A stretch of 64,000 nt of DNA, taken from assembly GCA_027490215.1 (NCBI GenBank), contig JAIXYO010000066.1:62001-126000 (forward strand), given 5' to 3'. The position numbers were made by a program, and so were the translations under genes. Source of the DNA: Rubrivivax sp. GTDB taxonomy: Bacteria; Pseudomonadota; Gammaproteobacteria; Burkholderiales; Burkholderiaceae_C. Position 1 is the first letter of the stretch, and each line of letters begins with the position of its first letter. The notes under the pieces are model-generated. The model was not told the origin of the DNA and made no database searches. It saw only the letters and a list, made by a program, of their open reading frames with translations. Positions 15,613 through 32,540 of the stretch are shown here, in pieces.

Positions 15613-17010
15613 TTACGCGTGGCGCAGGGCATCCACGATGTTCATGTGCGCTGCGCGTGAGGCGGGCAGGATCGCAGACAGCGCGGCCACGATCACCAGG
15701 CCGACTGCACTGACCAGCATCAGCCCATGTTCGCCATGCAGGCTCACGGCCAGTGGCGTGGCCTCAATGCGGCCTGGGGCGATCCATGTCAGGCCGAGCT
15801 GATTGATGAGCCATGCGATGCCTAGCGCCGTGCCAATCCCGAGCACGGCGCCAAAGCAGCCAAGGACAACGCCTTCCGTGAGGAACATCGCCTTGATCCC
15901 TTTCTGCCGAAGGCCGATCGCGCGCAAGGTGCCGATCTCGACCGTGCGCTCGATCACTGCCATGCTCATCGTGTTGCTGACGGTGAACAACACGATCGCG
16001 CCGATCAGCATGGAAATGAAACCAAAGATCGATGCAAACATCGCCAGCGCTTGACCGTAATACGGGTTCAGCGTCTCGTAGTCGAACACCGCCAGCGGTT
16101 CGTCCTTCAGCGTTGTCCTCAAGATCTGGTCCAGCCGTTCTCTGGCTGCCGGAATCTGGGAGGTGTGATGCAACTGCAGCACGATGGCGGTGACCTGCGC
16201 AGGGCCGGCGCCATAGATCAGCTTCTGGGCCTGGGACAGGTGCAGTCCCACATAGACATCGTCCAGTTCTTTCAATCCCTGGAACTCGGCCCGCACGACA
16301 TCGACAGAGGCCACATTGGGGGCGCCGCGCGCGTTGCCGGCCAAAAGCTCAATGCGTTGTGCACCGTTTACCGATCGAACGGCTTGTGGCATCGATGCAG
16401 TTCCTGTCAGGTCCGCAATGTCGCTGGGTAGATCGGCGCCTTGCGGCTCGATCTTGGGCGCAGCAGCTGCGCAATCAGGCACTTTCAACGCAGTACAGAG
16501 TTCCAGCACGCGGGCGACGCCCGTCCCGATCACTGCTGAATCTCGATCGGTGTCCGTCAGCGACAAATGTCGAGACAGGATGCGCATTCCGTAGTCGTTC
16601 CATGCGCGCATCCGATTCTGGTCTTCGACCACCACACCGTTGACGAGGACCGTGCGTGAAACGCCAGCCGCGAAATTGCCCGCGACGCCTCCGAACTGTA
16701 GTGTTGGCGTCACCACCACCAGCAGCGGTGCGAGCACGGGATCTTGCTTGATGGTGGATACGATCCGTTCGTAAGACGCTATTCCATAGGCTGTCGGGTT
16801 GCCACTGCCCAGCCGAAAGTAGTCTTGGTTTTGGACCTGGAGATGCCCCGTGCGTCGCACGAACTCCGATTGCAGGCCGTACCGGATGTCCGTGACGTAC
16901 CCGCCGAACAGCAGCACCGCCACCAGACCCAGCACCATCGCGATCAGGGTCATCAGAGACCGCCGCCGATTGCGCAGCAGATTGCGCCAAGCCAACGTCA
17001 GTGTTCTCAC
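15613..17010 (-). CDS. FtsX/MacB-family ABC transporter permease, no ATPase alongside
   Basis: A 465-residue membrane protein in the LolE/MacB/FtsX layout. One transmembrane helix near residues 18-40 follows WRNLLRNRRRS, then a large extracytoplasmic domain (about 45-325), then three C-terminal helices (about 330-355, 375-400 and 430-455). The motif ERTVEIGTLRAIGLRQKGI between helices is the FtsX-family cytoplasmic coupling segment. Such permeases export or extract lipoproteins, lipids or peptides with a separate ATPase, which is absent here. It is divergent from the acyl-amino-acid synthase gene and convergent with lpdA (9-base gap). The substrate is unknown. Confidence 0.78.
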   Translation of the reverse strand: MRTLTLAWRNLLRNRRRSLMTLIAMVLGLVAVLLFGGYVTDIRYGLQSEFVRRTGHLQVQNQDYFRLGSGNPTAYGIASYERIVSTIKQDPVLAPLLVVVTPTLQFGGVAGNFAAGVSRTVLVNGVVVEDQNRMRAWNDYGMRILSRHLSLTDTDRDSAVIGTGVARVLELCTALKVPDCAAAAPKIEPQGADLPSDIADLTGTASMPQAVRSVNGAQRIELLAGNARGAPNVASVDVVRAEFQGLKELDDVYVGLHLSQAQKLIYGAGPAQVTAIVLQLHHTSQIPAARERLDQILRTTLKDEPLAVFDYETLNPYYGQALAMFASIFGFISMLIGAIVLFTVSNTMSMAVIERTVEIGTLRAIGLRQKGIKAMFLTEGVVLGCFGAVLGIGTALGIAWLINQLGLTWIAPGRIEATPLAVSLHGEHGLMLVSAVGLVIVAALSAILPASRAAHMNIVDALRHA

Positions 17011-17204: not shown

Positions 17205-18560
17205 ATGACAGATTCCTCGGAAGCTCGCCAGACACGACGCATGCCGCAACTCGCCCGTGCCGCATTGAGCGGACTGCCGCGCGAGACGCGCTTTGCGCTG
17301 TATCGACGCATGGCTGACTGCAACCCCAACCCCGACCCTCGGTTGACGCTCGGCATTGCTGCGACGCAACATGAGCTTGAAGGCTGCTTTTCACTGCTGC
17401 ATGAAGCTTACGTGGCCAGTGGCTTCATGAAGCCAGACCCCTCTGGCCTGCGTGTGACTCCGTACCACGCATTGCCAACCACCACCACGTTGTTCGCCAA
17501 GTTCGACGAGCAGATTGTTGGCACGCTCTCCATCATCCGTGAAGGCGTGTTCGGTTTTCCCATGCAGTCGGCGTTCGACTTGACGGCCGTGCGAGCGCAG
17601 CCAGGTCGCATCGCCGAAATCTCGGCACTCGCGGTTCATGCTGAGTTCCGCGACGCCAGTGGAACGATCCTGTTCCCGCTGATGAAGTTCATGTACCAGT
17701 ACTGCACCGAGTACTTCGACACCCGCCATCTCGTCATTGCGGTCAATCCGAAGCACATCGAGATGTATGAATCACTGCTGTTCTTCCAGCGGCTGGAGGC
17801 TGATGTCGTCAACAGCTACGACTTTGCCAACGGCGCACCAGCTGTCGGTGCCACGCTGGACCTGCAGGCGGCGCCGCAGAAGTTTTACGAGGCCTATGAA
17901 GGACGCCGGCCCAACAAGAATCTGCATCACTACTTCACCAAGGTTTCGCTGCCGAACATCAAGTTTCCAGCGCGCACCTACTACACGACCAATGATCCTG
18001 TCATGTCGCCCGCGTTGCTCGATCACTTCTTCAACCAGCAAACTCGGGTCTTTGAGCAACTCGACCAAAGGCGTCGCCGGTTGCTGAAGGCGATCTACCA
18101 TGAAGACAGCTACCGCGCCGTGTTACCGACGGTTCAAGACGAATCGGCCATCCGGGAATCCTTGCGACGACATCGACGCTATTCGCTCAAGTGTCCTGCC
18201 ACGCTCACACTCGATCATCAGGGCGGCGATCAAGCGGTGGCGCTGGAGGTCATTGACGCGTCGCTCAACGGATTTCTCGCTCGCGCTGCAGTTTCACTCC
18301 CGGATCGGGCACGAGGTCAAGTCAGCATTCACCTGGGTGCAGGGCTGATTGCCACTGCCGAGGCGGTGGCCGTCCGAAGCATCATCGCCAAAGGCGGCCC
18401 CTACTTCGGGTTTCGTATCGACAATCCCGACGTGGATTGGCGCCGCAAGATCGAGAGCATGGACGAGCACCACACTGAGCCGGGCGGCCTGTCGCGCACG
18501 AGCGAGGTCGCCGATGCCTCACAGGAGTGGTCGGTTCACGACGCAGAACCTGGCAATTGA
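17205..18560 (+). CDS. FeeM-like N-acyl amino acid synthase fused to a PilZ domain
   Basis: A 451-residue protein from the ATG at 17205. In-frame alternatives lie at 17001 and 17241, and none has a strong ribosome site. Residues about 49-245 resemble the GNAT/autoinducer-synthase-type N-acyltransferases (FeeM and the PEP-CTERM-associated acyltransferases): LFAKFDEQIVGTLSII, IAEISALAVHAEFRD and HLVIAVNPKHIEMYE. Such enzymes move long acyl chains from acyl-ACP to an amino acid. Residues 321-407 form a PilZ-like domain with both c-di-GMP motifs, RRHRR (321-325) and DASLNG (351-356). The fusion suggests second-messenger control of lipid synthesis. The acyl acceptor is not known. Confidence 0.72.
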   Translation: MTDSSEARQTRRMPQLARAALSGLPRETRFALYRRMADCNPNPDPRLTLGIAATQHELEGCFSLLHEAYVASGFMKPDPSGLRVTPYHALPTTTTLFAKFDEQIVGTLSIIREGVFGFPMQSAFDLTAVRAQPGRIAEISALAVHAEFRDASGTILFPLMKFMYQYCTEYFDTRHLVIAVNPKHIEMYESLLFFQRLEADVVNSYDFANGAPAVGATLDLQAAPQKFYEAYEGRRPNKNLHHYFTKVSLPNIKFPARTYYTTNDPVMSPALLDHFFNQQTRVFEQLDQRRRRLLKAIYHEDSYRAVLPTVQDESAIRESLRRHRRYSLKCPATLTLDHQGGDQAVALEVIDASLNGFLARAAVSLPDRARGQVSIHLGAGLIATAEAVAVRSIIAKGGPYFGFRIDNPDVDWRRKIESMDEHHTEPGGLSRTSEVADASQEWSVHDAEPGN

Positions 18561-18581
18561 GCCGGCGCTACGGCTTCGATG

Positions 18582-19457
18582 TCAGCCGTTGCCCTTGAGC
18601 TTGGATCGCACCAGCATCAACAGCAGCCGCTGCAGCGGATTGTTGTTGCCGAACGGCCGCCACGTGAGCCGCAGCGTCTGTTCGTAGGCGTCAAACTGCA
18701 TCGCCCACGGAGCGGCCTTCAACGACCCTCGACCAAGTAGCACTTTCAACGCAGCGGTACCCATCAGGCCTGCGCACAGATCACAGGCCATCATCGTCGA
18801 GGGCCCTCGCATCTCGGTGAAGTTGACGGCCTCCGCGGCGACGAGATAGCGGCGCTGCAACATGGCCGGTGACAACCCGGCGATGAAGCGGGCGTACTGC
18901 TCCTGCACGGGTTGCCCTTCCAGCCGGAAGTAATCTTCGAAGCTCATGCCCTGCGGGTCGAAGTACAGCAGCGACACGCCCATGCCCAGCGGCGCGGCCG
19001 TCAGTGCCGGGATGCCACGCTCGCGACATGCGGCGAACACCATGCGCCTTGCATCGATGGCAAAGAAGTCGATCCCATCGACATACAGATCAACATCACG
19101 CAGAAACTCATCCACGTTCTCTGGCGTCACGCCTTGGCCGAATCTGCGCAACTCGGCTTCAGGGTTCACGTCCAGGGCCAACTGCGCCAGCACGTCCACT
19201 TTGGGCTGACCCAGAAAGGGCATCGAGGCACCGGCCTGCCGGTTGAAGTTGTGGACCTCGAAGTGGTCGAAATCGGCAATGTTGAACTTGGCGATACCGA
19301 GTCGGCACAAGGTCAGCAAATGGGCGCCGCCGACACCGCCAAGACCGGCAATGGCAATTCGGGCGCTGCGCAACACCGCCTGCTCAGGCTTGGTGACCCA
19401 ACCGATGTTGCGCGAGAACGCGGCCGAGTAATCGAATGAGTGATTAGAGATGTTCAA
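18582..19457 (-). CDS. ThiF/E1-like adenylyltransferase
   Basis: A 291-residue stand-alone E1-fold protein with the nucleotide-binding GLGGVGGAHLL (about residue 36), followed by the acidic/Asn stretch DFDHFEVHNFNRQ that is typical of ThiF/MoeB enzymes and contacts ATP. One CxxC (ACDLC) is visible near the C-terminus rather than the two pairs of zinc-binding MoeB/ThiF, and there is no rhodanese domain. No ATG is available near the N-terminus. A TTG at 19457, 26 bases past the methyltransferase stop, is the best start. E1-like enzymes activate carboxylates as adenylates. The substrate here is unknown. It is convergent with the FeeM-like gene. Confidence 0.75.
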   Translation of the reverse strand: MNISNHSFDYSAAFSRNIGWVTKPEQAVLRSARIAIAGLGGVGGAHLLTLCRLGIAKFNIADFDHFEVHNFNRQAGASMPFLGQPKVDVLAQLALDVNPEAELRRFGQGVTPENVDEFLRDVDLYVDGIDFFAIDARRMVFAACRERGIPALTAAPLGMGVSLLYFDPQGMSFEDYFRLEGQPVQEQYARFIAGLSPAMLQRRYLVAAEAVNFTEMRGPSTMMACDLCAGLMGTAALKVLLGRGSLKAAPWAMQFDAYEQTLRLTWRPFGNNNPLQRLLLMLVRSKLKGNG

Positions 19458-19483
19458 CCCGCAGTTTGAAGTGGCGGTGCGGA

Positions 19484-20164
19484 TTATCGAGCTGCGGGTT
19501 TGCGCGCCAGCACGTTGTAACAGTTGCCAGAAACTCCCTCGGTCACGATCTCGAACCCTGCGGCGATGATGCGCTGGCGAATGTCGTTGCGTTCATAGGG
19601 CGTGTACAGGATTCCCTTGCGCATGCCCCAGCGATTGATGCGCTCGGCGAGCGGGCGAAGCGGCCAGCGTCCTCGGGGGAAGAGCAGCACATTCGCGGCC
19701 ATCGTTCCGCCGGGCTTGAGTACCCGCAACACGCCGCGCATGCCGCCATCGACATCCGGAAAACAATGCACGGCATTTGCCACGTTGGCTGTGTCGAATG
19801 AGTCCGCTGCGAAAGGCATCTCCGCGACATCAGCATGCAGGAATTCGAGGTCGGGCTTGCCAGCAAAACGGTGTCGCGCGCCGGCCAGCATCGGTTCGGC
19901 GTAATCGACCCCGACCACCTGAACGTTCGGAAGTTTCTTCCAGCGGCGCCAGTGGAAGATCAACTCGAGCAGCGTGCCTGTACCACAGGCCACTTCGAGA
20001 TGTTGCGCGCCGAAATTCGGACCGAAGAAGCGCAACTGCTCGGTCAGAGTGCTGTTGTAAGCGAAGGTGAGGATGAAGAAGCCACGGACGTCGTACCACC
20101 ACGGCTCGGACTTGTAGGCGGCTGCAATGGCCTCCCGGCTCTTCGGTGTCGTCGGGGTTTGCAT
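19484..20164 (-). CDS. Class I SAM-dependent methyltransferase
   Basis: A 226-residue methyltransferase with motif I LEVACGTGTLLEL, the acidic residue in VVGVDYAEPML and the later DTANVANAVHCF segment of the Methyltransf_11 family. The ATG at 20164 has an AGGATC site just before it. It is the first gene of a two-gene minus-strand operon with the ThiF-like gene. Nothing in the sequence fixes the acceptor. Context suggests a product of the neighbouring acyl-amino-acid pathway, or a quinone-like lipid. No regulatory site was identified upstream on this strand. Confidence 0.8.
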   Translation of the reverse strand: MQTPTTPKSREAIAAAYKSEPWWYDVRGFFILTFAYNSTLTEQLRFFGPNFGAQHLEVACGTGTLLELIFHWRRWKKLPNVQVVGVDYAEPMLAGARHRFAGKPDLEFLHADVAEMPFAADSFDTANVANAVHCFPDVDGGMRGVLRVLKPGGTMAANVLLFPRGRWPLRPLAERINRWGMRKGILYTPYERNDIRQRIIAAGFEIVTEGVSGNCYNVLARKPAAR

Positions 20165-20364
20165 TGGTTGATCCTGGGTGTAGATCGCATCTCCCGGCCT
20201 TGGGCGGGGCTCAACTGGCTTTTAGGTTGAGACCATAGCCTGAAAAAGTTCATTGATCCGAAAGGTAGGTCGGGAAGCGGCAGGGATGTCGGAAAAACTT
20301 ACATCAGATTGGAGCCTTTTCGAAGAATCTCCCTAAGTGATTGATTCGTATGGGTTTAATTTTC

Positions 20365-20380
20365 TGGCACGACTGGTGCT
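20365..20380 (+). promoter_or_regulatory. Sigma-54 (-24/-12) promoter of the PEP-CTERM gene
   Basis: TGGCACGACTGGTGCT matches the RpoN consensus TGGCACRNNNNTTGCW at every defined base but one, with the invariant GG and GC ten bases apart. It ends 51 bases before the start codon, leaving room for a normal leader. PEP-CTERM genes in several betaproteobacteria depend on RpoN with the PrsK/PrsR pair, which agrees with this. PrsK/PrsR are not in the window. No other element was identified in the 267-base gap 20165-20431. Confidence 0.8.
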
Positions 20381-20431
20381 TAAAGAGTCTCGTGAGTGAT
20401 TCACTCGACCCCAACCCCTCTGGAGGATCTG

Positions 20432-21235
20432 ATGTCTAAGTATCTTGTTTCCATCGTCGCAACTGCCGCCGCTCTGGCGTGTGGTTCTGCGTCCGCTGCA
20501 ATTTTCGAAGAGTTTACGGTCAATGAAACCGTGATTCCTGGTGCCAATGTTTTCAGTCTTGCCAACGCAACTTTGAAGGCTGGCAAGTTGAACGGCTCTT
20601 ACACCGAGGCTCTGACGGTCACGGGCCCAGGAACCTTCGCGGCTTCGGCGTTTGCGAACTTCAGCCAATTTCTGGATACCAACGGCGGCGCTACGGTGAC
20701 CAGCTTGCTGAACTCTTTTGATCCGATTGGCGGCTACAGGATTTACGCGGTGTTTTCGGCTTCCGGCAGCATCACAGGGCCTAACACCTTTGCTTCTAAC
20801 AACAATGCATTTGACCTTTTTCTGGACCCGGGCTCGGACACAACGGGTTCCGTGACAAACGGTACCTTGCCCGCAGTCTTGGCCAACAACGGCGAAGACA
20901 TCTTGCTCGCGTCCGCAGGTGCGGCTCTGTTCTCCAGTGCCGGTACGGGCAATTTGAATGGCCCTCCTGGCGCCTTCAACATTGATTTCACAGACTTCAC
21001 GTTGACCGCCTTCGGCAAAACGGTTTTTGTGGCCCCCGATCCCTTCTTCCTGAACGTTCGCGTGAATGGAGACTATGACGGTGTCAATCCAACTACTGAT
21101 CCTGTCACCAGGTTCATCACTGGTGATGTGAGCGCGAATTTTGCGGTTCCTGAGCCAGGCAGCCTGGCCTTGGTTGGTTTGGCCCTCTTGGGTGCTGGCG
21201 TTGCAAGCCGTCGCTCTGCATCAAAGAAGAAGTAA
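20432..21235 (+). CDS. PEP-CTERM sorting-domain surface/exported protein
   Basis: A 267-residue secreted protein: signal peptide (residues 1-23, ending SASA), a low-complexity Ser/Thr/Asn/Gly-rich body without cysteines, and a C-terminal sorting signal. The signal is the motif VPEP at 239-242, a hydrophobic helix, then RRS and three lysines. Such proteins are cleaved by an exosortase (EpsH/XrtA) and help build extracellular matrix or flocs. The start at 20432 follows TGGAGG. It is transcribed from a sigma-54 type promoter and ends at a strong terminator. The body has no recognisable catalytic domain. Exosortase is not in this window. Confidence 0.9.
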   Translation: MSKYLVSIVATAAALACGSASAAIFEEFTVNETVIPGANVFSLANATLKAGKLNGSYTEALTVTGPGTFAASAFANFSQFLDTNGGATVTSLLNSFDPIGGYRIYAVFSASGSITGPNTFASNNNAFDLFLDPGSDTTGSVTNGTLPAVLANNGEDILLASAGAALFSSAGTGNLNGPPGAFNIDFTDFTLTAFGKTVFVAPDPFFLNVRVNGDYDGVNPTTDPVTRFITGDVSANFAVPEPGSLALVGLALLGAGVASRRSASKKK

Positions 21236-21250
21236 ATAGTTCTTCGAGCC

Positions 21251-21281
21251 AAAAGCCCCAGGGTTTGCCTGGGGCTTTTTT
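21251..21281 (+). terminator. Intrinsic terminator after the PEP-CTERM gene
   Basis: Twelve-bp perfect arms (AAAAGCCCCAGG / CCTGGGGCTTTT) with a 5-base loop, continuing into a T run. It lies 15 bases past the stop codon. The A-rich left arm also gives a T-rich tail on the other strand, but the convergent prsT gene ends more than 130 bases away. Confidence 0.93.
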
Positions 21282-21414
21282 GTTTCTGAGTGAACTCTTG
21301 AAGCGGTGGGAGCACTTGAAACGAACACGTCAGGTCATGCTCTGATGAGGTCTGCAGTGGGCAGTCGGGTGACGGCCAACATGGCAAAGCCTGAGCCGAT
21401 CCTGAATGTTCGCC

Positions 21415-24189
21415 TTACATCGCGTTGATGAGCGCTGCCACTTCGGCATGAACGGGCAGCTTGTCGCCCAGTTTGGCCAGCGCATCAAGCTCTGAGCGAG
21501 CCTTCGCTTTATCGCCAGAGGCCAGATAGATTTTGGCCAGATTCAGCTTGAATCCGGCGTTTGCAGGTTCTGCCAGCAGCACCTTGGTCTGCAGTTCGAT
21601 GGCCTTGGCATGCTGCCCCTTGTCGGAAAGCAACATGGCCCAGGTGTCCATCAGTGCGGGCTGATTCGGAGCGATCTGGTTGGCCTTTTCGGCATAGCCG
21701 ATGGCGTTGTCTCTGCGGAGTTGCTGGCTGACCCAAGCCAGGTTGTTCAGGGCCGCAGCGTTGTTGGGTTGGGCTTGAATGACGCCCAGGTAATGGGCTT
21801 CTGCAGCTCTGTAGTCCTTGCGTTCCGTCGCTACTGCGCCAAGGTAAAACAGAAAGCGGGCGTCCTTGGGGTGTGTTTTGACCCAGGTGGCAGCCAACCG
21901 TTCTGCCTCGGCCGCCTTGCCAGCTTCCACCGTGACGGCGTGCAGCTTGATAGCGAGTTCCGGCGCCTCGGCGACCTTCAAGCCTGAACGGTAGGCGACA
22001 GTTGCGGCATCCCAGTTTTTCTGGGCCGCTTGAATGTCTCCTTCGAATACAAAACCTGCACTTTCGTTCGAACGCTGCTTTTGCACGGTGCGCGCCACCG
22101 CCATGGCCTGCGGATACTCCTTGCGCTCCAGATTCAGCAGGATCAGTTGGCGCTGTGCCTCCAGAAAATCCGGCTTCAAGTCCAGCGCCTTGCGCAGACT
22201 CTTCTCGGCGGACGAGGCGTTCTTGTTGGCGTGTTGGACCGCCGCGAGCCGTAGCAGGGCTTGTGCCGACAAGGGCTGAGCTTCCACCAATTTGGCGAAA
22301 GTCGTTGACGCTTGGTTGAGATCGCCGGAAGCCTGCTGTGCTCTACCCAGTGCGTCCAGCAGTTCTGGACTGCCAGGTACTCCGGTGATCGCACTCTGCG
22401 CGGCTGCAAGGGCGAGCTTGCTGTCGTTGGCACGCAAATGCAGTTCGATCAGCAGCAGGCGCGGCGCCACGTCCGTGGGGTTGGCATCGACGGCCTTGGT
22501 CAGCAGCCCGGCCACTTCTTCCTTGCCAGCGCCTTGCAGAGCTGCGAGTTCGGCCAGAGCCAACAAGGCCTGGCCCTGCTTCGGGTTCTTTGCCAGCAGG
22601 CTTTCAAACCGCTTTTTCGCATCGGCGGGTTTCATGTCGATCATGTCCAGCGTAGCCAGGCTGGCGGCGGCGGAAAAGTACGACGGGTCCAGCACCAGTG
22701 CTTGCTCGAAGCTCTTGCGCGCAGCCGCAGTGTCCTTTTGCGCCAGTTGAATTTGACCGCGTAGGTTGGCAGCCAACGGCTTGTCTGGTTGCTTGGCTTC
22801 CAGTTTGGAGACCGCTGCCAAAGCCTTGCCGAAGTCCTTGCGCTGCAGGTGCGCGCTGATCAAGGTCAGGTCGGCATCGGGTGCGCTGTTCGATTCGGCG
22901 ATGCTTTCGAGTTCATCGAAAGCGCTGTTGTCGTTTCTGCCGCTCGATAGATGGGCCACGGCCAACGCGGTGCGCGTGGCTACGTTGTTCGGATCGGCTT
23001 TCAGTGCTTTCGAAAAGTATTCTTCAGCCGCCTTGGTGTCACCATTCTGAAGATAGACCTGCCCGGCAAGGCCAAAAAATCTCGGATCCAGGCCATCCTT
23101 ACGAGTGATGGCTTTCAAGGTGTCCAGCGCCTTGCGGGCCTGACCTGACTGCAGGTATGTGTTGATCAGCAGTCGTTGCGACAACACGCTTTGTGGTTCA
23201 GCCTGGGCGGCCCGCGTCAGATAGATCTCGGCCTGTGCGAGCGAGTTGGTTTTCAACTCAATGGCGCCGGCCAGTTGCAGAATACGCGCATTGTTCGATG
23301 CCAGTCGCAATAACTCCTCTGCCAACTGCCGCGCCAGTTTGTAATCCTTCTTTTGATAGGCCAGTTGCGCTTCCGCATATTTGGCCTCCGCGCTCTTGGG
23401 TGCCAGCTTCTTGATTTGATCGAGCTGGATCGAGGCCTCTTCAAGCTTGTTTTTATCCAACAGGACGGCCAGCACCGCCAAATGGCCAATCACGAACTTC
23501 GGGTTGACCTCGATGGATTTTCGATAAGCCGCCAGCGCGTCGTCGGTTTTGCCCTGGGCGTATAGGAAGATGTCGCCCTTGAGCTTCCAGGCCTCGGCGT
23601 TGGACGGGGCTTTCGTCAGGATGTCCGCCATTGCCACCATCGCGCCGTCGATGTCGCGCGCTGCTACCTTTTGCCGTGCATTGAGCATCAACGCGGGCAC
23701 GTGATTCGGGTCAGCAGCCAGTGCGGCAGCCAAGGCGGCCTCGGCCTCTTGCGGCTTGCCGAGGCTGTTCTGTGCGATGGCCAACGAGGTCTGAAGGCTG
23801 GCGTCGGCAGATGGTTGATTCAGCTTTGTGGAGCCAAACTGATCCACTATCTTTTGAGCTTGACCCAGGAGCACCAGCGTGCGGGCTAATTCAGGCACAA
23901 CGATCGGTTCGGAATACTTCGCCGCTAGCGCCTTGCGAAACTCAATTTCAGCGCCAGTGGGGTTCCCTTCTTCCAGCAGGATCTTTCCGAGCAGGAACCG
24001 GGCTTCTCCGAGGTCGGGATTCGCTTGCAGCGCGTTCTTCAATTGAATCTGCGCCGACTTGTTGTCGCTCTTCTGAATGAACTCCTTCGCCGACACAAGC
24101 TGTTGTTCGGGGGATTGGTTGCTGCAGGCCGTGAGAAGAACCGAAGCAACGAGTGCAGTCAGCAGCGACTTTTTGTGGAGTGGTTTCAT
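21415..24189 (-). CDS. prsT: PEP-CTERM system TPR-repeat lipoprotein PrsT
   Basis: A 924-residue lipoprotein. The signal peptide ends in the lipobox LLTAC, with lipidated Cys22. The rest is almost wholly tetratricopeptide-type helical repeats (recurring A-x-x-x-Y/F-x-K-A-L-x-x-x-P units such as YFSKALKADPNN and SFEQALVLDPSYF). Length and layout match PrsT, the TPR lipoprotein that accompanies exosortase/PEP-CTERM loci, thought to help export of the associated polysaccharide at the outer membrane. It is convergent with the PEP-CTERM gene. Base composition is slightly less GC-rich than flanking housekeeping genes. Confidence 0.88.
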   Translation of the reverse strand: MKPLHKKSLLTALVASVLLTACSNQSPEQQLVSAKEFIQKSDNKSAQIQLKNALQANPDLGEARFLLGKILLEEGNPTGAEIEFRKALAAKYSEPIVVPELARTLVLLGQAQKIVDQFGSTKLNQPSADASLQTSLAIAQNSLGKPQEAEAALAAALAADPNHVPALMLNARQKVAARDIDGAMVAMADILTKAPSNAEAWKLKGDIFLYAQGKTDDALAAYRKSIEVNPKFVIGHLAVLAVLLDKNKLEEASIQLDQIKKLAPKSAEAKYAEAQLAYQKKDYKLARQLAEELLRLASNNARILQLAGAIELKTNSLAQAEIYLTRAAQAEPQSVLSQRLLINTYLQSGQARKALDTLKAITRKDGLDPRFFGLAGQVYLQNGDTKAAEEYFSKALKADPNNVATRTALAVAHLSSGRNDNSAFDELESIAESNSAPDADLTLISAHLQRKDFGKALAAVSKLEAKQPDKPLAANLRGQIQLAQKDTAAARKSFEQALVLDPSYFSAAASLATLDMIDMKPADAKKRFESLLAKNPKQGQALLALAELAALQGAGKEEVAGLLTKAVDANPTDVAPRLLLIELHLRANDSKLALAAAQSAITGVPGSPELLDALGRAQQASGDLNQASTTFAKLVEAQPLSAQALLRLAAVQHANKNASSAEKSLRKALDLKPDFLEAQRQLILLNLERKEYPQAMAVARTVQKQRSNESAGFVFEGDIQAAQKNWDAATVAYRSGLKVAEAPELAIKLHAVTVEAGKAAEAERLAATWVKTHPKDARFLFYLGAVATERKDYRAAEAHYLGVIQAQPNNAAALNNLAWVSQQLRRDNAIGYAEKANQIAPNQPALMDTWAMLLSDKGQHAKAIELQTKVLLAEPANAGFKLNLAKIYLASGDKAKARSELDALAKLGDKLPVHAEVAALINAM

Positions 24190-24450: not shown

Positions 24451-25254
24451 TCAGCGGCCTCCGAACCGGTAGCTCGACACCGTGATACCGCCGAAGAAAT
24501 CGTCCTGGTGGTACACACGGGTCGCCCGGTCGTCGCCCGCAGCGCCAACGGCCACCATCAGGGGCAGGAGATGATCCTCCCTCGGGTGCGCGAGCCGAGC
24601 CGCCGGGGCGCTCTCCCAGTTGATCAGGCGGGTGATGCGCTCGGCGGGGCTGGAGGCGACCAGGGTCTGCTGCAACCACAGGTCGAATGCCGCGGAAGGG
24701 TCCCTGGCCTGGGGCCCGAACTCGCGCAGGTTGTGATAGCTCAAGCCGCTGCCCAGTATCAGGATCCCTTCGTCTCGCAGCGGCGCCAACGCGCGGCCGA
24801 CGGCAATGTGATCCTTCGGCTCGTACCCGTGCCGCAAGGACAGTTGGAGCACCGGAACGTTGGCTTGCGGGTAGATCACCGCCAATGGCGAGAACGTGCC
24901 GTGGTCGAACCCGCGCAACGGATCCAGCCTCGCTGCAAAGCCTGCGTCTTCGATGAGCCTGCGCACGCGTTCGGCGGTTCGTGGAGAGCCGGGCGCCGGG
25001 TAGGTGATGCCGTAGGTGTGCTGCGGGAAGCCAGCGTAGTCGTAGACCATCGGCGGCTGGGGGCTCGACATCGCGGTGAACTCGTGTTCTTCCCAATGCC
25101 CCGAGATCACAAGCACCGCTTGCGGTGTTTCGCCGATCTGGCCCGGCATCGCCTTCAGAGATGCCTCGAGCTGGTCGTAGGCGCCATTCGACTCGCTCTT
25201 CATCCAGGGCCAGGGGCCGCCGCCATGCGAGATGAAATAGGTCGGCAGTGTCAT
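24451..25254 (-). CDS. DODA/LigB-type extradiol ring-cleavage dioxygenase (YgiD-like)
   Basis: A 267-residue protein of the class III extradiol dioxygenase (LigB/DODA) family. It has the N-terminal metal-site histidine in YFISHGGGPWPWM, the second-site VISGHWEEHEF, the central SLRHG and ILGSGLSYHNLREF, and the C-terminal HPREDHLLPLMVAVGAAGDD. E. coli YgiD cleaves L-DOPA in this way. The physiological substrate here is unknown. The start at 25254 is chosen because the residues before it have no family match. It lies 67 bases downstream of the oleate hydratase gene on the same strand. Confidence 0.85.
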   Translation of the reverse strand: MTLPTYFISHGGGPWPWMKSESNGAYDQLEASLKAMPGQIGETPQAVLVISGHWEEHEFTAMSSPQPPMVYDYAGFPQHTYGITYPAPGSPRTAERVRRLIEDAGFAARLDPLRGFDHGTFSPLAVIYPQANVPVLQLSLRHGYEPKDHIAVGRALAPLRDEGILILGSGLSYHNLREFGPQARDPSAAFDLWLQQTLVASSPAERITRLINWESAPAARLAHPREDHLLPLMVAVGAAGDDRATRVYHQDDFFGGITVSSYRFGGR

Positions 25255-25321
25255 GGCATTCAGCTTAGCGCCTGTCCCGCCGGCCACTGCGATCGACGCT
25301 GGATCTCGCGCGCGCCCAACG

Positions 25322-26893
25322 CTACTTCAGTGCCTTCACCAGCGCATCGAACTGTGCATGCAGTGACCTGTCGTGCGGGGTCACCGGCGGAACCGGCTTC
25401 GTGATGCCGAGCAACTGGTAGACCGCCATCTGCGCGGCCCGCACCGAGAACTCGACCGTGAAGACGGTATCCAGCGGGATCTCGACGAACTGGCTGATGA
25501 AGGCGAAGTTCTTCGTGTCTGGCGGCACCGGCAGTGGGCGGTCTCCGGGCGCGCGGGGCATGAACATGCTGGTGATGTAAGGCATGCGGCAGGGGATGCA
25601 GTTGGCCGTGGCCACCGTGTCCAGATCGAAGCGCAGATGGCCGGAGAGCTCCTGCAGCAGTTCTGCTCCCGTGCAGTCGGCCATGGCTTTTGGAACGAAG
25701 TTGCCGATGCGGTCGGGGAACAGCCCGTAGCCCCAGAACACCTGCACACCAGCCGGCTGATTGGCGAAGTGTGGCTGGTGCGCCAGCACGATCGACATCA
25801 GCCAGTTCGAGCCCTTGAAGGTCACCAGCCCACCGGTGCCCGCCTCGTTGCCGCTGAAGCGCTGCATCTGCTCGAAGAAGACGGAGTCCCGGAGCGTGAC
25901 GGTGAACGAGGCCCAGTCTGATTGCGCGACGCAGCTGTTGAACACGGCCGGCTTGCCGAATGACGGCCGGCCATCGGCGAGCTTTTCCCACAGGCTCCAG
26001 CTGCCGTTGTGGGCCTTCTTCAGTTTGGCGGGCGCTGTCGTCATGGAACCCAGACTCGACGCATCGGTCATCGAGCCGTTCTGCAAGAACACCAGATCGC
26101 CTTCCTCCAGGATCATCGATTCGCTGCGACCCTTCAGAGTGCAGTGCAAACCAATGACCTCGAACCGACCTTCGGTGAGTTTGTGGTCGAGATCGGTCAC
26201 GGTGCAATCGTTGATCAACTGCACGCCTTGCGCCTCCAGCCAGCGATGCAGCGGAACGACCAGCGAGTCGTACTGATTCAGCACGGTGCGCTTGACGCCC
26301 GCCAGCGTCTCGATGCGCGAGAACTCCAGCATGAACCGGTGCAGATAGCGCCTGAACTCCACCGCGCTGTGCCACGGCTGGAAGGCGAAGGTGGTGACCC
26401 ACATGAACCAGAACTCGGTCTGGAAGAACGTTGGCGACAGGTGATCGGTGATGCAACTGGTGCCCAGCGAGGCTTCGTCAGCGCTGACCAGCCGGAGCAG
26501 TTCCACCCGGTCGTGCATCGAAAAGCCCATTGACGCCACCGGCACCTTCGCGCGGCGGCTGTCGACCAGGCGGGACATCGCGTGCGAGACATGCTTCTCG
26601 TTGAAGGCCAGCGTCTCGTCGAACACGCTGCGGCCCGGTTGCGAGAGCGAAGGGATGGACTTGAACAGATCCCAGGTGCACTCGTAGTTGTCCATGGTCA
26701 GCATGCGGCCGCCGCGCATCGAGTAGCCGCGCTCGGCGTCGCCTGAACCGTCGAGGCTGCCGCCCATCACCGAGCCGGTCTCCAGGATGCTGATCTGGCC
26801 GCCAGGCATGCCGCCGTCGCGGATCAGGAAGGCGGCGCCAGCCAAGGAGCCAATGCCCCCGCCGACAAAGTAGGCCTTGCGCGTCGATTTCAT
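25322..26893 (-). CDS. ohyA: Oleate hydratase (MCRA-family FAD enzyme)
   Basis: A 523-residue FAD-binding hydratase with the N-terminal dinucleotide motif FVGGGIGSLAGAAFLIRDG and the family-specific SRGGRM-like segment GYSMRGGRMLTMDNYECTWDLF. The start at 26893 follows the ribosome site AAGGAAGG. The enzyme adds water across the cis-9 double bond of oleic acid to give 10-hydroxystearate, a detoxification or lipid-modifying step at the membrane. The downstream dioxygenase may share its transcript. It is divergent from the Acg-type flavoprotein gene over 261 bases. Confidence 0.9.
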   Translation of the reverse strand: MKSTRKAYFVGGGIGSLAGAAFLIRDGGMPGGQISILETGSVMGGSLDGSGDAERGYSMRGGRMLTMDNYECTWDLFKSIPSLSQPGRSVFDETLAFNEKHVSHAMSRLVDSRRAKVPVASMGFSMHDRVELLRLVSADEASLGTSCITDHLSPTFFQTEFWFMWVTTFAFQPWHSAVEFRRYLHRFMLEFSRIETLAGVKRTVLNQYDSLVVPLHRWLEAQGVQLINDCTVTDLDHKLTEGRFEVIGLHCTLKGRSESMILEEGDLVFLQNGSMTDASSLGSMTTAPAKLKKAHNGSWSLWEKLADGRPSFGKPAVFNSCVAQSDWASFTVTLRDSVFFEQMQRFSGNEAGTGGLVTFKGSNWLMSIVLAHQPHFANQPAGVQVFWGYGLFPDRIGNFVPKAMADCTGAELLQELSGHLRFDLDTVATANCIPCRMPYITSMFMPRAPGDRPLPVPPDTKNFAFISQFVEIPLDTVFTVEFSVRAAQMAVYQLLGITKPVPPVTPHDRSLHAQFDALVKALK

Positions 26894-27154
26894 GATGTCG
26901 CCTTCCTTGGGGTTGCTGTGCTGCTTGCGGGTGAACGCTGGAGCCTGTTCTTTCCCGCGTGCCCTGTCTGTGCGACAGCCAACGTGTGTCGAAGCCCTCA
27001 GTTCTGCAGTGTTCGCTGCCGCACTGTTCACCAGCTTGCTCGTACGTACGCTGTGACGTTCGCCCCTGCCAATTCAGCACGGCCCGATGCATTTCCAACT
27101 GGAGTTCACGATGAACCCGAAGAGCCCCCAGAAAACTCCCCACACGCCGACGCC

Positions 27155-28306
27155 ATGATGCAAAGTGATGCGCTGACAACCCTTCGCCGGCGGCAGTTCA
27201 TGGCGGCTGCGCCCGCGTTGCTGCTCGGCGCGTCGATGCTGCCCGGATGTTCGCGAGCCGCCGACCCCGAAAGCTACGAGTCTGTCGCCGCACGGATCCG
27301 AAGGGCGGATGCCTCGGTCGGTATCGATCGCACGGTGCTCGCTCCCGCGCTGTCTGCCGAACTCGTGCACGAACTGGTGAGGTTCGCGACGCTGGCTCCA
27401 TCCAGCCACAACACCCAGTGCTGGAAGTTCGCGCAGGAAGACCTGGGGCTCACGATCGGGCCCGACGTGTCCAGGCGCTGCCCCGCGGTAGACCCCGACG
27501 ACCATCACGTATTCGTGACCCTGGGCTGCGCCGCCGAGAACCTGGCGCTTGCTGCACTGGCCCACGGGCTGCACGCCGAGGCCCGATTCGATGCGGTGAG
27601 CAGCGCCATCCACGTGGCGCTGTCACCCACGCGTGCGCAGGCCTCACCGCTGTTTCAGGCGATTCCCGCGCGGCAGTGCACGCGCGGCGACTATGACGGC
27701 AAGCCGCTGTCTGGCGAGGAGCTGAAGCTGCTTGAGCGCGCGGGCACGTCCAGCGGTGTGCGGATGCTGTTGCTGACCGATCGGCCGGCCATGGAGCGCG
27801 TGCTGGAGCACGTGATTCAGGGCAACACCGCCCAGCTGGCGGATCCTGCCTTCGTCAAGGAGCTTGAAGCGTGGATTCGCTTCAACCGCGCAGCGGCAGT
27901 GCGTACACGGGATGGTCTGTTCAGTGTGTGCTCAGGCAGCCCGAGCATCCCGACCTGGTTGGGCGACCTCGCCTTCGGTTTGCTTTTCACCGCCAAGGGC
28001 GAGAACGACAAATACGCGCGCCAGCTGCGCAGTTCGGCTGGCATTGCCGTGTTCGTGGGCGACGCAGCCGACAAGACCCATTGGGTGGCGGTGGGTCGCG
28101 CCTATGAGCGCTTTGCGCTGCAGGCCACGGCGCTCGGCATCCGCAACGCCTTCCTCAATCAACCGGTCGAGGTGGCGGCGGTGCGCTCGCCGTTCGCCGC
28201 GGCGCTCGGCCTGGCCGGGCTGCGGCCGGACCTGGTGGTGCGCTTTGGTCGCGGGCCGACCCTGCCACCGTCGCTGCGCCGGCCGGTCGAGGCGGTCATG
28301 GTGTGA
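27155..28306 (+). CDS. Acg-family FMN-binding oxidoreductase, twin-arginine exported
   Basis: A 383-residue nitroreductase-fold protein. The N-terminus has a twin-arginine-type signal (LRRRQFMAAAPALLLGA), with a possible lipidation Cys32 in SMLPGC. The body has the Acg-like FMN elements, LVRFATLAPSSHNTQCWKF near residue 70 and GLGIRNAFLNQPVEVAAVR-like sequence near the end. Relatives such as mycobacterial Acg bind FMN but often lack nitroreductase activity and may store the cofactor. ATG codons at 27155 and 27158 are both possible. The neighbouring divergent gene is oleate hydratase. Confidence 0.78.
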   Translation: MMQSDALTTLRRRQFMAAAPALLLGASMLPGCSRAADPESYESVAARIRRADASVGIDRTVLAPALSAELVHELVRFATLAPSSHNTQCWKFAQEDLGLTIGPDVSRRCPAVDPDDHHVFVTLGCAAENLALAALAHGLHAEARFDAVSSAIHVALSPTRAQASPLFQAIPARQCTRGDYDGKPLSGEELKLLERAGTSSGVRMLLLTDRPAMERVLEHVIQGNTAQLADPAFVKELEAWIRFNRAAAVRTRDGLFSVCSGSPSIPTWLGDLAFGLLFTAKGENDKYARQLRSSAGIAVFVGDAADKTHWVAVGRAYERFALQATALGIRNAFLNQPVEVAAVRSPFAAALGLAGLRPDLVVRFGRGPTLPPSLRRPVEAVMV

Positions 28307-28490
28307 AGGCGTGTGGTCGGGAACGGTGCGTTGGGCCCCGGGGGTACCAGACAACGCAAGAAAGTCTGATTGGACGGGCCCGTACGGACTATTCAAGCGC
28401 CGCGAGCCTTGTTCTGCATGACACAAAAGGTGAATAGGCTTCAGTGATCAGTCCCCCAAGGGACGGCGAATGTCCACAGGAGCATCGAGC

Positions 28491-29144
28491 ATGTTGAAAA
28501 GCAGTTTTCTTTCGGCTGCGGCTTTGATGGCGGCCCTGCTGTCGCCGGCGGTTTCTCAGGCGGCTTTCGTCAACGGGACTCTCGGATTCATTCCGTTCGG
28601 CTCGCAAGCCTCCTTCGTTGGTTCTAACTGGGCGAGCGCGACAAGTCTCACGTTTGCGTCGAATCCCCACTACGTCAACACCCTGCCGAGCGGAAACGAC
28701 TTCAACGCGGGCACGGGCGTCACACAGTTGACCGGCTTTCCGGCCGCGGCAAGTGCTCAGGTCTTCGTGTCGACCGCAGCACTGACCCTCTCCGGCGTCG
28801 GTACGACCCCGGTCTCGGTTCCGGTCACCAGCCTCTTCTCGTTCGGCAGCGGTCGCTGGCTTTTCGATCTGGTGACGCTGTCGCGCTCGAGCAGCGGGCC
28901 CAACACTGCGTCGCTGGCGGGTCAGGGTGTCCTGCGCGACACCACAGGGTTCTTCCAGAACACTCAGGCAGCATTCACCCTCAGCAATCCGACGGTGAAC
29001 GGCAACAACCTTAGCAACTATTCGGTGAGCTTTGCTGCCGGCGGCGTCAGCCCAGTCCCCGTTCCGGCGGCGCTTCCGCTGCTGGCCGCGGGTTTGGCGG
29101 CTTTTGGCGCGTTCGCGAGGCGTCGCTCCACCGCACTTGCTTGA
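28491..29144 (+). CDS. VPxPA-type C-terminally sorted exported protein
   Basis: A 217-residue secreted protein. The start at 28491 has an AGGAGC site, and an earlier in-frame ATG at 28470 does not. A signal peptide (about 1-24, ending SQAA) and a Ser/Thr/Gly/Asn-rich body lacking cysteine are followed by a C-terminal signal. That signal is VPVPAALPLLAAGLAAFGAF then RRR, which resembles the VPLPA-CTERM variant of exosortase signals rather than the VPEP form at 20432. The 184 bases before it hold no recognisable sigma-54 site. Function is unknown. Confidence 0.8.
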   Translation: MLKSSFLSAAALMAALLSPAVSQAAFVNGTLGFIPFGSQASFVGSNWASATSLTFASNPHYVNTLPSGNDFNAGTGVTQLTGFPAAASAQVFVSTAALTLSGVGTTPVSVPVTSLFSFGSGRWLFDLVTLSRSSSGPNTASLAGQGVLRDTTGFFQNTQAAFTLSNPTVNGNNLSNYSVSFAAGGVSPVPVPAALPLLAAGLAAFGAFARRRSTALA

Positions 29145-31616: not shown

Positions 31617-32540
31617 TCAGCCGTTCAACCCGATCAGCAACCCCAAGGCCAGCACGGCCACAGCCAGATGGAACGCGCTCCACCACAGGTAGCGCCGTCG
31701 CGTTTTGTGCGGGGGCAGGGTGGAGATCAGGAACATGCGACCGTCGGTGGGGGCCCGCAGGATGCTGAGTTCGCCCAGCTGGCGCATCTCACGGTGCTGT
31801 TGTTCCACGGTCTTGGTGGCCAGGCGCCGCGCCAGCTCCCATTCACGCAGATCGATCTCGCCATTGCCGTCGAGGTCGAAGCGCTTCTTCAGTTGAACGG
31901 GGTCCTTTTTCCAACTGGCCAGCAGCGTGCTGACATCGGCACTGACGCTCAATGCCGTTTGCTCGCCACGCACGGTGGTGTATTCGCCCAGCACATAGAT
32001 CAGGCTGCCGGCGAACAGCATCTCCTCGACCAGCTTGTCGCCGTCTCGATACGTCACCCGTTGCTCAGGCGCCATCACTTCGGCGTGCTCGGGGTCGACC
32101 CGGCAGGCGCCGGTGCCATCTGAAATCTCGAAGGTGGTGTGGCTCGATCCGCTGTCGATCTGCTGCCATTCGCCCCGGGGCTCTTCGCGGGAGTACACGC
32201 GGTAGCGATACCAGATGCAGGCGATGTGGCTGTATGGGGTGAATATCAGCTCGCTGGGGTCGGCCTTGGCCTTGCCCATCACTTCGACATAGCCCTGGGC
32301 CGCCGAACCGATGCGAGAGGTGGCGATGTCGGCGATCGCGCGCGCGCGCCGGTAGCTGGCGGCGCTGGCCAACAGGCCGATGGCGGCGATCAGCAACAGG
32401 CAGATCGTCCTGCCTGACGCCTCCTCAAGGTGCAGCCCGAAGCCCCCCAGCAGGGTGTAGCCGATCAGGGCCAGCTGGTGGGTGTGCCGTTCGCGCAGGC
32501 CGGCCAGACGGGGCACATCGATCACCCCTGACAAATCCAT
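31617..32540 (-). CDS. GIDE-domain membrane protein with an EF-hand loop
   Basis: A 307-residue protein with two hydrophobic helices near the N-terminus (about 24-36 and 45-62) and one at the C-terminus (about 288-305). The GIDE-type beta domain between them (about 75-195: YVEVMGKA, CIWYRYRVY, FEISDGTGACRVDP) is found in MULAN-like proteins and bacterial partners of LemA. Unusually, residues 222-233 form a canonical 12-residue EF-hand calcium loop (D222, D224, N226, G227, I229, E233). No RING domain is present. It lies five bases after lemA, so the pair is an operon. Confidence 0.8.
   Translation of the reverse strand: MDLSGVIDVPRLAGLRERHTHQLALIGYTLLGGFGLHLEEASGRTICLLLIAAIGLLASAASYRRARAIADIATSRIGSAAQGYVEVMGKAKADPSELIFTPYSHIACIWYRYRVYSREEPRGEWQQIDSGSSHTTFEISDGTGACRVDPEHAEVMAPEQRVTYRDGDKLVEEMLFAGSLIYVLGEYTTVRGEQTALSVSADVSTLLASWKKDPVQLKKRFDLDGNGEIDLREWELARRLATKTVEQQHREMRQLGELSILRAPTDGRMFLISTLPPHKTRRRYLWWSAFHLAVAVLALGLLIGLNG

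Follow-up and report, generated by a model that had tools for sequence, protein, structure and literature searches.

A PilZ-bearing N-acyl amino acid synthase, a ThiF protein of the oxazolone-cyclase kind and a methyltransferase set among PEP-CTERM matrix genes in Rubrivivax sp.

The window analyzed here is a 64,000-nucleotide stretch of a Rubrivivax sp. genome (G000, 3.51 Mb in 72 contigs; contig C44, positions 62001-126000). Within it, five genes encode an N-acyl amino acid synthase (NAS) with a PilZ domain, a ThiF-family protein, a methyltransferase, the PEP-CTERM protein PepA and the lipoprotein PrsT. All five lie where an earlier annotation of this DNA (the original prediction) had placed them, and the identities and layout that it proposed were borne out by their coordinates and by Pfam and NCBIfam matches. 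The features are as follows.

17205..18560, plus strand: NAS-PilZ, a FeeM-type N-acyl amino acid synthase with a C-terminal PilZ domain, 451 amino acids (Pfam FeeM and PilZ, fold matches, residues)
18582..19457, minus strand: ThiF, assigned to the oxazolone-cyclase kind (PRK08223/PRK14851), 291 amino acids, TTG start (model scores; R73, K86, D130)
19484..20164, minus strand: S-adenosylmethionine (SAM)-dependent methyltransferase, 226 amino acids, first gene of the pair with ThiF (Pfam Methyltransf_11)
20365..20379, plus strand: sigma-54-type -24/-12 box of pepA, TGGCAC-N5-GTGC (similar box at other pepA-type genes)
20432..21235, plus strand: PepA, a flocculation-type PEP-CTERM protein (NF033554, 166.7 bits)
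21415..24189, minus strand: PrsT, the XrtA/PEP-CTERM lipoprotein with tetratricopeptide repeats (TIGR02917, 815.8 bits)
27200..28306, plus strand: Acg/Rv3131-type nitroreductase-fold protein (FDO-B kind), a possible desaturase (NF047509)

The NAS-PilZ gene is convergent with the methyltransferase-ThiF pair, in which 26 bp separate the two genes; pepA is divergent from the methyltransferase gene, and prsT is convergent with pepA. The G+C content was 57-61% across 17-25 kb of the window, as compared to 62.5-66% in the remaining 2-kb steps of 9-39 kb. Near-identical loci were found in two Burkholderiales metagenome-assembled genomes (loci L017 and L018; NAS identity 98% and 96%). All locus maps were drawn with a purpose-made simple gene caller and profiles.

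The NAS matched the Pfam FeeM model at 149.9 bits, and its AlphaFold model (mean predicted local distance difference test, pLDDT, 78.5, from 25 sequences) matched the FeeM chains of 2g0b with a TMt of 0.75-0.83. The C-terminal PilZ domain gave a weak sequence match (23.6 bits against a cut-off of 22.5), yet it was backed by two PilZ structures that bind cyclic di-GMP (c-di-GMP), 4p00 (BcsA) and 5y6g (YcgR), among the 50 fold matches listed for the model. In an alignment of 85 rows, with one short NAS row left out, E138, R321, R325 and S353 were invariant and G356 was kept in 84. The c-di-GMP motifs RxxxR and (D/N)xSxxG are both complete in the window NAS (R321, R325, D351, S353, G356); position 351 is E in 65 of the 85 rows and D in 17, and the motif is thus atypical in most relatives. 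E138 aligns with the catalytic Glu of FeeM, an assignment made from the alignment and from PMC4897644 (in excerpt). In that study, N-acyltyrosines were produced in E. coli by two NAS-PilZ enzymes of environmental-DNA origin, and the conserved Glu was needed.

An order-wide search returned NAS-PilZ from 2 of 200 genomes, our own included, and a contig scan yielded 283 relatives, the best 80 of which were used. At least one XrtA/PEP-CTERM family was present in the fetched flanks of 60 of these 80 loci, and PrsT was the direct neighbor of NAS-PilZ in 33. A paper by Craig et al. from 2011 is said to claim in its title that NAS genes are linked to PEP-CTERM systems. The original prediction had treated the genes as one accessory block; the PEP-CTERM and PrsT neighbors are better described as a recurring context than as a random assembly. 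A family of MarP-like, trypsin-like proteases (e.g. L035:11290-12060; 75 bits, below cut-off) occurred in 46 of the 80 loci, mostly directly downstream of NAS. Elsewhere in the host genome we observed a second, single-domain FeeM-type NAS (L004:1309-2109, on G000:C47; 164.8 bits) and weaker NAS-like matches on C14 and C56.

The ThiF protein scored 436.6 bits with PRK08223 (cut-off 266), 300.8 with PRK14851 and 244.6 with PRK14852. Its active-site residues R73, K86 and D130, read by MoeB residue numbering, were kept in at least 95% of 81 aligned rows. Within the 989 positions of PRK14852, NAS matches the first part, ThiF the adjacent part and, weakly, proteins of the flavin oxidase family FDO the last part; the FDO proteins match the last part of PRK14851 better. 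These adjoining matches suggest that the three activities may also occur as fusions. N-acyl oxazolones (Oxz, Tyz and Trz) are made by just such a set, namely a NAS, a ThiF cyclase for ATP-dependent ring closure and a nitroreductase-type oxidase, FDO, for desaturation of N-acyl amino acids (PMC10404671 and PMC12856293, both in excerpt). On the model scores and neighbors, we place the window ThiF in the oxazolone-cyclase kind, and the statement in the original prediction that no characterized pathway was known requires correction, as the N-acyl oxazolone pathways share the first two enzymes.

Related ThiF genes were found in 43 of 299 family genomes (E 1e-60) and 40 of 369 class genomes (E 1e-50), our own included in both. 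Neighbors were counted in 80 stretches, each the best match of another genome (42 from the family, 38 from the further class; a second ThiF place in G259 was left out). FDO lay within 600 bp of ThiF in 49 loci, 13 of them as one open reading frame (ORF). A NAS of one type or another lay within 5 kb in 39 loci, where a rough chance estimate, given 3-4 NAS-like genes per genome (seven genomes), would be about 1; 48 loci had one at any distance within the stretch. NAS and FDO were both present in 28 loci, strict XrtA/PEP-CTERM markers in 52, and an export or chain-length gene in 38. All of these counts are lower bounds, since 20 of the 80 stretches were shorter than 15 kb. FDO matches were counted from 40 bits, several of them falling at 42-52 bits; the NAS profile was built iteratively, and all 10 matches checked with curated models were of NAS type.

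On the matrix side of the locus, PepA and PrsT both scored above their cut-offs (80 for floc_PepA NF033554, 312.2 for TIGR02917), and the presence of PrsT together with a PEP-CTERM protein places the locus within the XrtA/PEP-CTERM system. No exopolysaccharide (EPS) export or chain-length genes stood next to the block, a result that covers its surroundings and not the genome as a whole. Two more exosortase-like genes, under the XrtA cut-off, were observed at G000:C61:8980-9747 (191 bits) and G000:C40:33358-34140 (142 bits). For the sigma-54 promoter named by the original prediction, the box TGGCAC-N5-GTGCT is present at 20365, judged against the sigma-54 consensus, though 9 one-mismatch matches in the window against 8.2 expected put it at chance level when taken alone. 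Similar boxes stand upstream of other pepA-type genes, TGGCAC-N5-nTGCT in L017, L018, L159 and L185 and TGGCAT in L223 (without a shuffled control); as L017 and L018 are near-identical, three of the five occurrences are independent. In Aquincola, pepA lies beside prsT and has an RpoN promoter (TGGCAC, CTGCTT; PMC9850573, in excerpt). This shared layout suggests that pepA, and perhaps also the divergent methyltransferase-ThiF pair, may answer to RpoN and the Prs regulators.

The methyltransferase (METHYLTRANSFERASE) is of a generic SAM-dependent type (Pfam Methyltransf_11, 68.3 bits); UbiE, its best NCBIfam model, gave 58.2 bits against a cut-off of 216, and the protein fell under every NCBIfam cut-off shown. 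Its AlphaFold model, from three near-identical sequences, had a pLDDT of 38. The gene is rare: counting our own genome in both sets, 4 of 299 genomes from the family and 2 of 369 from the class carry it (E 1e-40). Intact copies in G335, G339 and G548 lie 1.3, 4.6 and 0.24 kb from ThiF, respectively; each is transcribed away from a pepA-type gene whose product is 27-34% identical to PepA, with XrtA-kind EPS and Prs genes around. In G548, from another family of the same class, pepA, the methyltransferase, ThiF and an exosortase-type NAS fall inside 3.7 kb, the exosortase-associated acyltransferase (TIGR03694, 248 bits) being 86 bp from ThiF by matched stretches. In G339, from the same family, NAS-PilZ, ThiF, the methyltransferase, pepA and prsT fall inside about 18 kb. 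G335 keeps the methyltransferase, pepA, prsT and ThiF in one place, whereas its NAS genes are about 45 kb away. The co-occurrence of NAS, ThiF and methyltransferase in other genomes, by which the original prediction was to be checked, was thus found. None of these three genomes has an FDO near ThiF, and none gave a genome match to the FDO of locus L035 at 1e-5. Such a pattern suggests that the methyltransferase may stand in for the FDO desaturase.

The region beside the NAS and PrsT genes differs even between close relatives. In three species of one genus (the window and two sister genomes), different genes fill the slot that runs from lpdA to a conserved block beginning at window position 31617: in the window 16.0 kb with NAS-PilZ, ThiF, methyltransferase, pepA, prsT and more; in G301 8.6 kb with ThiF, FDO, PrsT, an exosortase-type NAS (TIGR03694, 249 bits) and a PEP-CTERM gene resembling pepA (76 bits, under the cut-off of 80); and in G398 12.8 kb with NAS-PilZ, PrsT and WbuX-, GlcD-, thioester-reductase- and AMP-ligase-like genes, these four names all from matches under curated cut-offs. 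A third sister genome, G471, gave no match to lpdA at 1e-150. In the NAS-PilZ loci, the gene preceding the XrtA export gene was ThiF in 6 of 9 ThiF loci and a GlcD-like gene in 12 of 15. The two never occurred together in one locus, a non-overlap that does not reach significance by itself (about 0.16, calculated by hand); their common position is the notable part. The loci with a GlcD-like FAD oxidase at the place of ThiF are L023, L028-L032, L034, L037, L039, L041, L042 and L055, and two members of this family checked by model scored 57.5 and 46.9 bits, under cut-off. Another possible tailoring set was observed at L019:11370-17103 (also L020 and L022), where NAS-PilZ is followed by WbuX-, GlcD-, thioester-reductase- and AMP-ligase-like genes.

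The explanation that we hold, with moderate confidence, is that the block makes a c-di-GMP-responsive N-acyl amino acid that is activated and cyclized by ThiF and probably finished by the methyltransferase in place of a desaturase, as a satellite of the XrtA/PEP-CTERM matrix system. The proposed order of events is as follows: NAS-PilZ would N-acylate an amino acid, most likely tyrosine or another aromatic, with a long chain, and its activity is probably regulated by c-di-GMP binding to the PilZ domain. ThiF would then adenylate the carboxylate with ATP, whereupon the amide oxygen would close a five-membered oxazolone ring. In many relatives FDO would next desaturate the oxazolone; here the last step is probably an O- or C-methylation by the methyltransferase. 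The matrix side of the same locus would be represented by PepA and PrsT. The original prediction had guessed at acylation, then activation or cyclization, then methylation; this was a fair guess, although it is usually an oxidase and not a methyltransferase that takes the third place. As a long shot, methylation of the ring enol could take over from the flavin desaturase and lock the saturated oxazolone as a stable aromatic 5-methoxyoxazole lipid that serves as matrix part or signal, with NAS active at high c-di-GMP and the slot beside NAS and PrsT acting as a swap site for tailoring enzymes.

Several observations weigh against this explanation. NAS and ThiF are convergent and share no operon, and this kind of ThiF was found in the fetched flanks of just 9 of the 80 NAS-PilZ loci, so that most NAS-PilZ enzymes function without a nearby ThiF. 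Exosortase A of the host genome (341.5 bits, cut-off 208) lies on a separate contig, C61. A partner-type FDO (FDO-A), beside or fused to ThiF, would complete the defining trio of enzymes but was not found; the sole FDO-like match to the FDO-A query in the host genome (25.6 bits) was a distant homolog, the Acg-type protein 7.7 kb away (ORF 26918-28306; NF047509 281.7 bits, cut-off 199). The L035 FDO query likewise had no match in G276, G280, G282 and G309, all without the methyltransferase, so replacement is suggested rather than demonstrated. Three of three methyltransferase loci without FDO would be expected by chance at about 5% (hand calculation), because 31 of the 80 ThiF loci already have no FDO within 600 bp. 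Oxazolones were not seen in Stieleria and related ThiF-bearing producers, according to PMC12479983 (in excerpt). The lipid product itself is a prediction, and its substrate is one that we infer.

Of the alternatives, the one that survives best, though we consider it unlikely, accepts an N-acyl amino acid derivative as the product of NAS and ThiF and assigns the methyltransferase to PepA or the exopolysaccharide; the enzyme would share the pepA control region and leave the lipid untouched. In the window and in L017, L018, L159, L185 and L223, the methyltransferase gene and a pepA-type gene are transcribed divergently, a tighter association than the distance of the methyltransferase to ThiF (0.03 to 4.6 kb), and the methyltransferase-ThiF operon was seen in the window lineage only. 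However, all three other genomes with an intact copy have it near ThiF, even though ThiF is present in so few of the genomes searched, and G398, which has no ThiF match at 1e-60, yielded only a broken piece (a match to residues 2-95, with a stop codon). An improbable alternative is that the N-acyl amino acid is the end product of NAS-PilZ, with ThiF and the methyltransferase belonging to an unrelated pathway and adjacent because matrix loci gather accessory genes. The 71 NAS-PilZ loci with no such ThiF in their fetched flanks favor it, as do tailoring genes that vary even among sister species; set against it are the 39 ThiF loci with a NAS within 5 kb, the single family model that unites NAS and ThiF, and the characterized NAS and ThiF homologs that act together. 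A chance neighborhood was likewise judged unlikely, because the gene linkage recurs in further genera and another family. A role for ThiF as an E1-like enzyme acting on a sulfur carrier, tRNA or protein conjugate, or as a housekeeping ThiF, MoeB or TcdA, is very improbable. In its favor, TcdA and E. coli ThiF are the relatives by sequence that have solved structures. Against it, the named ThiF, MoeB and TcdA models gave at most 79.9 bits, far under cut-offs, the host genome holds two more ThiF-family genes, none of the Cys residues of the window protein reaches 95% conservation in the 81 rows, and FDO and NAS neighbors of ThiF recur. An anti-phage E1 system was also rejected, as PADLOC matches were weak (42 bits at most for ThiF, and 44.4 bits for the methyltransferase with mads_2).

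Other neighbors in the window are recorded here. An FtsX/LolC-type permease (15613-17010, minus strand), divergent from NAS and without a visible partner, belongs to a family present in seven sources; in L022 it is followed by two genes (260 and 426 amino acids; no NCBIfam match). Beside PrsT, positions 24451-28306 encode a LigB-type dioxygenase, an oleate hydratase (678 bits, cut-off 567) and the Acg-type protein; no member of these three families was found among the NAS-PilZ loci. A second sorting-signal protein, of VPLPA-CTERM type (29.6 bits, cut-off 25.35), is encoded at 28470-29144 on the plus strand.

Oxazolone lipids are a recent discovery, and a 2025 paper regards their physiological role as a major unresolved question (PMC12856293, in excerpt). 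In our data, the oxazolone kind of ThiF recurs in exosortase-type matrix loci and its NAS partner can bear a c-di-GMP receptor domain; together these point to a testable role for the lipid in the biofilm state, in connection with matrix anchoring or flocculation. Beyond a gene table, we found no published link from exosortase/PEP-CTERM systems to oxazolone or ThiF lipids in the literature available in part, mostly without subscription papers.

Five known systems come closest to the locus. In the biofilm EPS locus of Rubrivivax gelatinosus, THIF-type genes are tabled directly before a polysaccharide export gene, without interpretation in the excerpted text (PMC3684757). The pepA-prsT flocculation locus of Aquincola tertiaricarbonis shares the RpoN-type promoter and the adjoining of pepA and prsT; unlike the window, its locus text, in the excerpt of PMC9850573, mentions no methyltransferase, acyltransferase, N-acyl or ThiF. 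The candidate stieleriacine locus of Stieleria neptunia (PMC12479983, in excerpt) likewise groups a NAS, a UbiE-like methyltransferase and ThiF; it differs in the nitroreductase alongside, and PEP-CTERM genes go unmentioned in the relevant section. For the known O-methylation, its authors favored a different methyltransferase and considered the UbiE-like one less likely. Nas343 and Nas354 (PMC4897644, in excerpt) have the same FeeM-type domain, PilZ domain and catalytic Glu of a type I NAS; they were judged to lie outside any pathway operon there. OxzAB, TyzACB and TrzAS (PMC10404671 and PMC12856293, in excerpt) also combine a NAS with a ThiF-type cyclase, and relatives of the window ThiF adjoin or are fused to FDO. 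With its PilZ-bearing NAS, its methyltransferase and PEP-CTERM genes and no partner-type FDO, the window departs from them and is not a full member of the oxazolone pathways; our claim is limited to the first two steps working alike. Two features are local, the PilZ domain on NAS and a methyltransferase at the place of many relatives' desaturase; the second points to a variant with methylation where desaturation is usual. The first two steps have their counterpart in a lipid pathway that was described recently; the methylation and the likely c-di-GMP switch would be new.

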